44,198 nt of DNA from Zetaproteobacteria bacterium CG_4_9_14_3_um_filter_54_145 (GTDB lineage: Bacteria > Pseudomonadota > Zetaproteobacteria > Mariprofundales > Mariprofundaceae), in contig PFXI01000043.1 in the NCBI GenBank assembly GCA_002791575.1, positions 1 through 44,198 of the forward strand, written 5' to 3'. Made by a program: the position numbers and the translations under genes. Numbering within the stretch: position 1 is the first letter of the stretch; the number at the start of each line of letters is the position of its first letter. The notes under the pieces are model-generated. The model saw only the letters and a program-made list of their open reading frames with translations. It made no database searches and was not told the DNA's origin. Shown here piece by piece: positions 26,141 through 28,201 of this stretch.

Positions 26141-27373
26141 TCAACGGGCGACAAGTAGCGGATAACAAAAGCGCAGCCCGGCTCTGCGCCCCCTGATCCT
26201 GCGCACCTGTGCCGTCGATATGGCCTGACCACCAAAACGGCGGTTGATGGCATTCACCGTCAGCATCAGTTGCTGCTGACGCAGGTCGCCCCGCATCAGG
26301 CCGAACAGGTCCGGCTGCGCCTGCCTCTCGCGCTGCAGCCCTGTTGCCACCACCCCGCAGCCGCGGTAGGCCTCACCGGCAACAAACAGCTCCGCAAACG
26401 CCTGATGCACTGCGGCATTGATGCGTTTCAGACTGTTGGTCGGCAGATCCAGATGCAGCGCCAGCCCCCGCCGCTCAAAGGATTCCAGCGTCAGAAACAG
26501 ATAGAGGCGGCTGGCCAACAGCTGCTTTGCCACCAGATCGGCAACCAGACGCAGTGCATGGTAACCCAGGTAGGCGGCGATGATGCGCCGTTTATCGCTG
26601 GCATGCCCCATTGATGCGGTTTTGGCCATACTTTTGGGTAGCGGCGGCTCACTTTCCAGCTTCAGCACCGCACGCCCGCGCAGCTCGTGCTGGAGAAGTT
26701 GGCCGTGGCGACCGAGCAGCTGCTGAATCAAAGCTTCATCGGCACGGGCAAACTGCAAGGCCGTGCCGATACCCCTGTTACACAGCAGCGCAGCGCGATT
26801 GCGTCCGATACCGGGAATATCGACCACTGCCAATGCCGCCAGAAAGGCGCTGATACCCGTAAAAGACACCACCGTCGTGCCATCGGGCTTGCGGCACTCG
26901 GAGGCCATTTTGGCCAGCGTGCGGCTGACACTCACACCGACCGAAACCGTAATCCCCAGCTCCTGCCAGACCGCATGGCGGATCGCATCGGCCAACTCCT
27001 CGTACGATTGATGCCACAACAAGCGGATCCCGTTAAAGTCGATAAAACCCTCATCAATCGAGTAGACCTCAACGACCGGACTGTAACGCCGCAGTATCGA
27101 AAACAGCTGTGCAGAAAGCTGACCGTAATAGCGAAAATCGGGCGACAGAAAAGCGCCATGCGGCGCCAGACGGCGAGCTTCCCACACCGGCGTACCGGTG
27201 CGAATCCCCAGCACTCTGGCGTCATAGCTTCTGGCCACAACCATGGCATCATGATTGGAAAGCACACAGATCGGCCGGCCGCGCAATTCAGGGTGTCGGG
27301 CCGCTTCACAGGAGGCATAAAATGCATCGCAATCGACATGCGCAATGGCATTCGGCCAGTCAGCTACAGGCAT
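26141..27373 (-). CDS. umuC: Y-family DNA polymerase, UmuC type
   Basis: UmuC is the catalytic subunit of the error-prone translesion polymerase Pol V. The 410-residue protein carries the Y-family signatures HVDCDAFYASCE (metal ligand D14) and YSIDEGFIDF (D107, E108), plus the helix-hairpin-helix VVDIPGIGRNRAALL near residue 190. It ends in the UmuC-type little-finger/C-terminal region QAQPDLFG and VNAINRRFGGQAI. Catalytic residues are intact and the length is near the usual 420. The partner UmuD-like gene lies 219 bp upstream on the same strand, a wider gap than the usual overlapping umuDC pair. AAAGGGG precedes the ATG. Confidence 0.93.
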   Translation of the reverse strand: MPVADWPNAIAHVDCDAFYASCEAARHPELRGRPICVLSNHDAMVVARSYDARVLGIRTGTPVWEARRLAPHGAFLSPDFRYYGQLSAQLFSILRRYSPVVEVYSIDEGFIDFNGIRLLWHQSYEELADAIRHAVWQELGITVSVGVSVSRTLAKMASECRKPDGTTVVSFTGISAFLAALAVVDIPGIGRNRAALLCNRGIGTALQFARADEALIQQLLGRHGQLLQHELRGRAVLKLESEPPLPKSMAKTASMGHASDKRRIIAAYLGYHALRLVADLVAKQLLASRLYLFLTLESFERRGLALHLDLPTNSLKRINAAVHQAFAELFVAGEAYRGCGVVATGLQRERQAQPDLFGLMRGDLRQQQLMLTVNAINRRFGGQAISTAQVRRIRGRRAGLRFCYPLLVAR

Positions 27374-27461: not shown

Positions 27462-27596
27462 ATGACCGGGGTACAGATGATACCTTGTGCATGGAGCATA
27501 CGTGTGAACCCCGGCAGGCAAAGATGGCAGCTATTACTCTTTCTACTATGCCTTTTCCCTGCGTCCTTCGCCTCCTCTGTGGTAAAATGCTTCTAG
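27462..27596 (+). CDS. Doubtful 44-codon ORF with a signal-peptide-like sequence
   Basis: On the opposite strand to umuC and the LexA/UmuD-like gene, an ATG at 27462 opens 44 codons ending in TAG at 27594. The product has a basic patch (GRQRWQ), a hydrophobic core (LLLFLLCLFPASFA) and stops eight residues later. That looks like a short secreted or membrane peptide, but there is only a weak AGAAG before the start and no family match can be recognised. It lies wholly in the gap between the two genes. It may be chance. Confidence 0.2.
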   Translation: MTGVQMIPCAWSIRVNPGRQRWQLLLFLLCLFPASFASSVVKCF

Positions 27597-28165
27597 AACT
27601 TACGGAACTGGCCGACAACTTCGCCGTAGATATCCAGCGACTGCGTCGGATATATGCATGGATAATCGGCGTTGGCCGGTTCCAGATAGGGACCGCGACT
27701 GTCGCCGCGCAGGTATTTGATGGTAAAATCACCGTCGACAATGGCCACAACGATTTTGCCGATCGAGGGATTCTGCTTGCGCTCAACCACGAGAAAGTCG
27801 CCATCGTGGATGCCGGCACCGATCATCGAATCACCGGTAACCGCCACCAGCACCGTGCTGGACGGATGCTCCACCAGATATTCATCAATGGTAATAACAT
27901 CACCCAGCGCCTCGGTAGCCGGACTGGCAAAACCGGCTGGCGCCTGCCCCACATGCGGACGGGCAAAAAACATATTGGCAGGCCCGACACGGCCGCCGGG
28001 CGCCTTCTGCAGATAGCCGGAAAAAATCATACGGTCGACAAATTTCACCGCCCCCTGCTTGCTGACACCGACGAGTGCCGCAATATCCGCATAGGATGGA
28101 ATCAGTCGGTACAGGGCATAATAGTCCTGCAACCGCCCCAGATAGATATGATCTTTATTCACCAT
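27593..28165 (-). CDS. LexA/UmuD-like S24 autoprotease with N-terminal winged-helix DNA-binding domain
   Basis: The 190-residue protein joins two parts. Residues about 10-68 form a LexA-like winged helix (IPSYADIAALVGVSKQGAV, then FSGYLQKAPGGRVGP). Residues about 72-190 match UmuD: a cleavage site A77-G78 in QAPAGFASPA, nucleophile S113 in TGDSMIGAGIHDGD, and general base K150 in GDFTIKYL. The 37-residue Ser-Lys spacing equals that of E. coli UmuD (60/97) and LexA (119/156). It should therefore bind DNA, cleave itself with RecA filament after damage, and possibly serve UmuC. UmuDAb of Acinetobacter is a known protein of this kind. The ATG at 28165 is chosen; the TTG at 28201 falls on the likely -35 element. 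Confidence 0.88.
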   Translation of the reverse strand: MVNKDHIYLGRLQDYYALYRLIPSYADIAALVGVSKQGAVKFVDRMIFSGYLQKAPGGRVGPANMFFARPHVGQAPAGFASPATEALGDVITIDEYLVEHPSSTVLVAVTGDSMIGAGIHDGDFLVVERKQNPSIGKIVVAIVDGDFTIKYLRGDSRGPYLEPANADYPCIYPTQSLDIYGEVVGQFRKF

Positions 28166-28172
28166 GGGGCAG

Positions 28173-28201
28173 AGTATGGTAGACGAACGTACACTGCGCA
28201 A
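28173..28201 (-). promoter_or_regulatory. Promoter with possible operator for the LexA/UmuD-like gene
   Basis: Read leftwards, TTGCGC (28196-28201) and CATACT (28173-28178) form -35 and -10 elements with an ideal 17-bp spacer. Initiation would fall at about 28164-28168, at or next to the ATG at 28165, and no ribosome binding site is present, so the mRNA may be leaderless. The spacer contains an inverted GTA-N8-TAC (28179-28192), placed where a self-repressor would act. The E. coli CTGT-N8-ACAG SOS box is not present. Confidence 0.4.

Follow-up and report, generated by a model that had tools for sequence, protein, structure and literature searches.

The window analysed here, a 44,198-nucleotide stretch of DNA, belongs to a genome of Mariprofundus (Zetaproteobacteria), a marine iron-oxidising bacterium; the assembly is 99.4% complete. 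On the minus strand of the window lies an open reading frame of 190 amino acids (27593–28165, N-terminus MVNKDHIY), whose product consists of a LexA-type winged-helix head and a UmuD-type self-cleaving core. The open reading frame, profile, alignment and fold matches together identify it as an HTH-UmuD hybrid gene and a predicted self-cleaving autorepressor, and Mariprofundus ferrooxydans PV-1 has a protein that is 98% identical. A TTG at 28201 that could serve as an alternative start is the −35 hexamer of the promoter. Directly downstream on the same strand, after a gap of 219 bp, follows a gene for a UmuC-like Y-family DNA polymerase of 410 amino acids with the short tail RFCYPLLVAR (26141–27373), assigned by its open reading frame, profile, tree and alignment.

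Residues 71–184 of the hybrid match Peptidase_S24 with an E-value of 7.5e-25. Its top NCBIfam model is UmuD (PRK10276) at 104 bits, below the cut-off of 110, followed by LexA (TIGR00498) at 75.4 bits, below the cut-off of 110.95. The first-pass annotation of this DNA had described the C-terminal half as UmuD-like, with cleavage between Ala77 and Gly78 and a catalytic dyad of Ser113 and Lys150, and the alignment confirms this description: the predicted self-cleavage site (27932–27937) and both dyad residues (Ser113, 27827–27829; Lys150, 27716–27718; all on the minus strand) have UmuD-type spacing and are invariant in 21 relatives. UmuD′ is also among the structural matches of the core.

The same annotation had placed a LexA-type winged helix at the N-terminus. 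In the AlphaFold2 model the first ~62 residues form three helices (residues 5–19, 25–32 and 36–48) followed by two strands, which is a winged helix (pLDDT 81–94), and an hhalign profile comparison matches this head to LexA N-terminal domains with a probability of 98.2 and an E-value of 3.7e-14. The domain thus spans residues 5–62 (27980–28153, minus strand), with residues 36–48 as the recognition helix. The window protein by itself does not match PF01726; two distant hybrid relatives do, the best at 1.9e-5. The top full-length structural match of the hybrid is Thermotoga LexA (3k2z, TM 0.73). The annotation had also described this head as absent from ordinary UmuD, and the E. coli protein indeed lacks it.

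The promoter and its operator-like palindrome

The hybrid promoter consists of a −35 hexamer, TTGCGC (28196–28201), a 17-nt spacer and a −10 hexamer, CATACT (28173–28178), 7 nt before the ATG, all on the minus strand. Both the −10 hexamer and the TTGC upstream of the palindrome are conserved in the genus, where the layout is TTGCnn, 17 nt, CATACT. Because only 7 nt separate the end of the −10 hexamer from the ATG in this genome, with a similar distance in congeners, the hybrid mRNA may be leaderless. General scans for promoter-like and terminator-like sequences stayed at chance level and missed this conserved promoter.

The −35/−10 spacer is occupied by a 16-bp operator-like palindrome, GTGTACGTTCGTCTAC (28179–28194, minus strand; genus alignment, site search and shuffles), the genus consensus of which is GTGTACGNNCGTACAC. 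Across the genus it stands 12–13 nt before the ATG, at −28 to −30. The segment from 28165 to 28201, which the first-pass annotation had put forward as promoter DNA for a gel shift, does therefore contain a candidate binding site. The window copy is imperfect, and 191 of 400 shuffles were equally good, so that it is not significant alone; its significance derives from the perfect copies at the identical position in congeners, which were matched by 0–4 of 400 shuffles. At the level of sequence the case for an autoregulatory operator is strong, in line with the earlier proposal that the protein may be a repressor.

Beyond these sites, the hybrid promoters carry different palindromes: GTATCCGACTGGATAC in Ghiorsea, GCGTACAAATGTACGC at a second hybrid operon in PV-1, CTGAACGTTCGTTCAG in a Lentisphaerae genome, GGATAGAACGATCGTTCTATCC in Syntrophaceae and TTAGAGCAATTGCTCTAA in Parcubacteria; in several Rhodocyclaceae promoters the palindromes are weaker or unclear. 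The recognition helix is 95% identical inside the genus, and its identity falls to as little as 15% across lineages. That operator and head appear to change together across lineages fits an autorepressor, as suggestive evidence rather than proof.

The partner polymerase and a possible role for the predicted cleaved core

The hybrid gene is the sole S24-peptidase gene of the source genome, and the downstream gene is its sole Y-family polymerase gene. The first-pass annotation had reasoned from the case of a genome lacking canonical lexA, and our search of this genome for other S24 proteins found neither LexA nor a separate UmuD; RecA is present. S24 genes were found in 21 of the 23 Mariprofundus genomes, nearly all of which carry the hybrid alone. 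PV-1 (G003), which has a second hybrid, and two genomes with phage-type repressors (G012 and G021) depart from this, and two single-contig genomes (G008 and G011) show the same pattern as the rest. Neither a canonical LexA nor a separate UmuD was detectable by these searches in the 23 genomes, and since no other S24 protein was found, the phage-type repressors and the second hybrid aside, the genus appears to be without canonical LexA. Other Mariprofundaceae genera present a different picture: in the four cases noted there is a LexA-like S24 core of ~155 amino acids that lacks a DNA-binding head, and the hybrid is missing.

Starting from the domains, the active site, the operator-like site, the gene order and the missing LexA and UmuD, all of them read directly from the sequence, we consider it very probable that the hybrid is a damage-sensing autorepressor with a very small regulon that is relieved by RecA-stimulated self-cleavage. 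By analogy with the LexA, UmuD and UmuDAb families, from which DNA binding, RecA-dependent cleavage and derepression are extrapolated, a hybrid dimer would use its winged helix to bind the palindrome between the −35 and −10 hexamers of its own gene, silencing the hybrid gene together with the Y-family polymerase downstream and, in congeners, an unlinked second Y-family polymerase too. Upon damage, RecA bound to single-stranded DNA would stimulate cleavage of Ala77-Gly78 by Ser113/Lys150, separating the head that binds DNA from the core that dimerises and so freeing the polymerase genes from repression. The UmuD′-like core (residues 78–190) may then serve the polymerase as an accessory subunit, a step that we propose because the genome has no other UmuD. 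It is the least certain step of the explanation, and we rate it just short of an even chance. Several observations count against the autorepressor reading: the imperfect window palindrome, the single strong site in the source genome, the 219-bp gap, a polymerase that is not part of the canonical UmuC clade and has no known UmuD′-binding tail, and one genome with the hybrid in which no Y-family polymerase was found (G014).

Aligned to E. coli UmuC, the polymerase keeps the catalytic D and D/E, the clamp motif xLF and a RecA-NT-like motif. Its C-terminus matches DUF4113 only at positions 1–23 of 51, and the E. coli UmuD′-binding tail is absent, being replaced by RFxYPLL; in E. coli UmuC the role of the tail is to bind UmuD′ (PMC6511836). 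In our tree the protein falls outside the canonical UmuC clade (SH-aLRT 100). The hybrid gene is upstream of a umuC, as first annotated, in the sense that a Y-family polymerase gene follows, for which the name umuC is acceptable only as UmuC-like. The absence of the canonical tail favours an alternative in which the hybrid is a repressor only, its cleaved core plays no part in polymerase function, and the polymerase works solo or with another partner. This alternative competes just with the last step above, so that our confidence in the one does not exclude confidence in the other, and we regard it as a serious possibility that stays somewhat below even. It is also favoured by the report that UmuDAb of Acinetobacter, a comparable protein, failed to rescue a umuD mutant of E. 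coli (PMC4807011). Against it stands the tail that took the place of the canonical one: Mariprofundus and Ghiorsea polymerases have a common conserved tail, [RK]FxYP (in Mariprofundus [RK]FxYPLL), as would be expected of polymerases with a common partner. The tail is common to the second polymerase as well, which mostly has no UmuD of its own. On these two grounds a common partner for both polymerases is plausible, and the hybrid core is the sole candidate of its class.

PV-1 has, in addition to the counterpart of the window operon, a second hybrid-polymerase operon, 57% identical, which has GCGTACAAATGTACGC as a separate operator. The polymerase of this second PV-1 operon defines the clade into which the genus's unlinked second polymerases fall.

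Gene order bears on the same question from both sides. Pairing of hybrid and polymerase with no UmuD between them is kept in most of the genus, in Ghiorsea and in three distant genomes, each from a different lineage, which argues against the repressor-only alternative. However, the hybrid persists in two Mariprofundus genomes without an adjacent polymerase. In one (G012) it stands alone and an unlinked polymerase carries an operator site, which points to action in trans; in the other (G014, 92% complete) the hybrid is present and a Y-family polymerase was not found. Both genomes speak for regulation in trans, with the subunit role optional. In Rhodocyclaceae, relatives of the hybrid are followed by a separate UmuD and then by a canonical UmuC, as though each job had gone to a protein of its own, an arrangement that likewise favours the repressor-only alternative.

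The predicted regulon and the relationship to LexA and UmuD

A search of the 23 genus genomes for the operator, allowing up to one mismatch, yielded 19 perfect copies, where by our own estimate ~0.2 would be expected by chance in 55 Mb. Twelve of these stand before the hybrid gene, four before the gene of the second Y-family polymerase (~413 amino acids) and three before tnpB. A fifth copy at the second polymerase has one mismatch, and the site is placed alike relative to the −10 hexamer and the ATG. The remaining one-mismatch sites look like chance occurrences (one, for example, lies within mutL), as does a site in a viral contig with no related genes nearby. The source genome has a single strong site, at the hybrid promoter; sites with two or three mismatches fall below the reversed-pattern control and so lend no support to a global SOS regulon in this genome. 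In the 21 genomes with a readable region upstream of recA, there is no site within 900 bp of that gene, the best matches having 5–6 mismatches. Because the perfect sites are confined to the hybrid, the second polymerase and tnpB, and none is found at recA, the predicted regulon is small: it comprises the hybrid and one or two polymerases, with tnpB added in some strains, and in the source genome it is this operon only.

A feature of another kind precedes recA, where a short hairpin lies just before the ribosome-binding site; its stem seems to vary while pairing is kept (for example TTCGAGCTATCGAA and TTCCGCTAAGGGAA). In Mariprofundus tnpB genes (two contigs of G020, and G015 and G011), the palindrome stands one base before the ATG. 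It is present with at most one mismatch in 4 of 12 cases and with at most three in 7 of 12. A generic origin of these palindromes was rejected, as TnpB relatives from Klebsiella and Arsenophonus have none, and the combination of site and ATG is unique to Mariprofundus among 398 Pseudomonadota genomes. TnpB may be under damage control in Mariprofundus.

The first-pass annotation had suggested that the protein could be the main SOS regulator, and such broad control is not borne out by this distribution of sites. That the hybrid is the main, diverged LexA of the lineage and rules a full SOS response is, in our judgement, improbable. The genus has no other LexA, the head is of LexA type and the closest full-length fold is that of Thermotoga LexA, all of which would suit such a role, but the lack of a site near recA, the restriction of perfect sites to hybrid, polymerases and tnpB, and a score below the LexA equivalog cut-off all speak against it.

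So does phylogeny. The S24 core tree unites the hybrids of Mariprofundus and Ghiorsea with the Rhodocyclaceae operon repressors and the three hybrids of Parcubacteria, Syntrophaceae and Lentisphaerae in one group (SH-aLRT 86), which lies beside all HTH-less UmuDs (92) in a joint clade (97). A second, careful tree recovers LexA (100/96) and HTH-less UmuD (90/83) as a clade each, with the hybrids in neither; a single hybrid clade is neither rejected nor shown (p-AU 0.30), and with few alignment columns the exact branching is uncertain. The hybrid groups with UmuD and not with LexA, so that a placement among LexA paralogues that never pair with umuC, which would have spoken against the initial reading, did not arise. 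Five N-terminally extended UmuDs were rejected as relatives of the hybrid, because their extension (GGxRxGAGRKPGS) is unrelated to the winged helix; this extension (GGxRxGAGRKPGS...IRVP) is possibly another DNA-binding head.

A pure UmuD, with the head a relic and the operator used by another repressor, is very improbable: by sequence the core is closest to UmuDs, but the head is conserved to the same degree as the core and, within the genus, its recognition helix even more strongly, palindrome and helix vary together between lineages, and no other LexA-like protein was found to use the operator.

Comparison with known systems and significance

The closest described counterpart of the proposed autorepressor is UmuDAb of Acinetobacter, a LexA-independent repressor of umuDC operons (PMC4807011, PMC11332147, PMC8565304). 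In this genus, which is without LexA, UmuDAb carries an HTH head on a UmuD core and has been shown by experiment to repress itself and umuDC operons and to be cleaved in a RecA-dependent manner at Ala83-Gly84 with a Ser119/Lys156 dyad; some species have a umuDAb-umuC operon (PMC4807011). Going by this description of UmuDAb, the hybrid shares the UmuD-type self-cleaving core, LexA-like head, Ala-Gly site and Ser/Lys spacing, as well as a genus without LexA, a position upstream of a umuC-type gene and a regulon of itself and error-prone polymerases, which for the hybrid consists of predicted sites and has tnpB as an extra. However, UmuDAb is reported to fall among the UmuDs of Moraxellaceae (PMC8565304), whereas the hybrids lie beside all ordinary UmuDs; ordinary umuDC operons are present several times over in A. 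baumannii, and Acinetobacter has the corepressor DdrR, whereas this Mariprofundus has no other UmuD; and UmuDAb uses a larger operator that has a 5-bp core, whereas that of the hybrid is a compact 16-bp palindrome. The Mariprofundus system, as predicted from sequence, therefore resembles a variant of the UmuDAb type, alike in its working parts and different in tree position, in having no other UmuD and in its compact operator.

With LexA (TIGR00498) the hybrid shares a winged-helix head, a self-cleaving core and a palindromic operator in its own promoter, but its core is in a different clade and below the cut-off, it has no operator at recA and it forms an operon with a Y-family polymerase. 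With UmuD (PRK10276) it shares core similarity, the spacing of cleavage site and dyad, and the pairing with a Y-family polymerase; ordinary UmuD, however, has a short arm in place of the ~62-residue head, and the E. coli protein has Cys-Gly in place of Ala-Gly. Two further systems are compared by description only. Streptococcal HdiR is an S24 repressor with a regulon limited to error-prone polymerases and, unlike the hybrid, clusters with phage repressors (PMC8565304). The regulon of the two LexA proteins of Geobacter sulfurreducens omits recA, like that predicted for the hybrid, but these proteins bear the name LexA (Jara 2003, cited in PMC6511836). Small SOS regulons under non-LexA S24 proteins have been described as convergent (PMC8565304).

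Among the papers searched, none dealt with an SOS response in Mariprofundus or Zetaproteobacteria. The locus adds an example from outside Acinetobacter, branching next to the UmuD family as a whole and not inside it, of a LexA-less bacterium in which an error-prone polymerase would be under a self-cleaving UmuD-type repressor, with a concrete predicted operator available for experiment. A speculative and rather unlikely extension is that the hybrid operon represents an ancestral state, in which a LexA-like autorepressor had its own Y-family polymerase and cleavage both derepressed the operon and yielded the subunit; UmuD would then have arisen by loss of the head, with control handed to LexA, and the operator would have been taken up by Mariprofundus TnpB elements. 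Should the core, once freed, also serve the polymerase, a single step would both derepress the operon and activate mutagenic synthesis, and Mariprofundus ferrooxydans PV-1 would offer a way to test whether UmuD originated from a LexA-like repressor.
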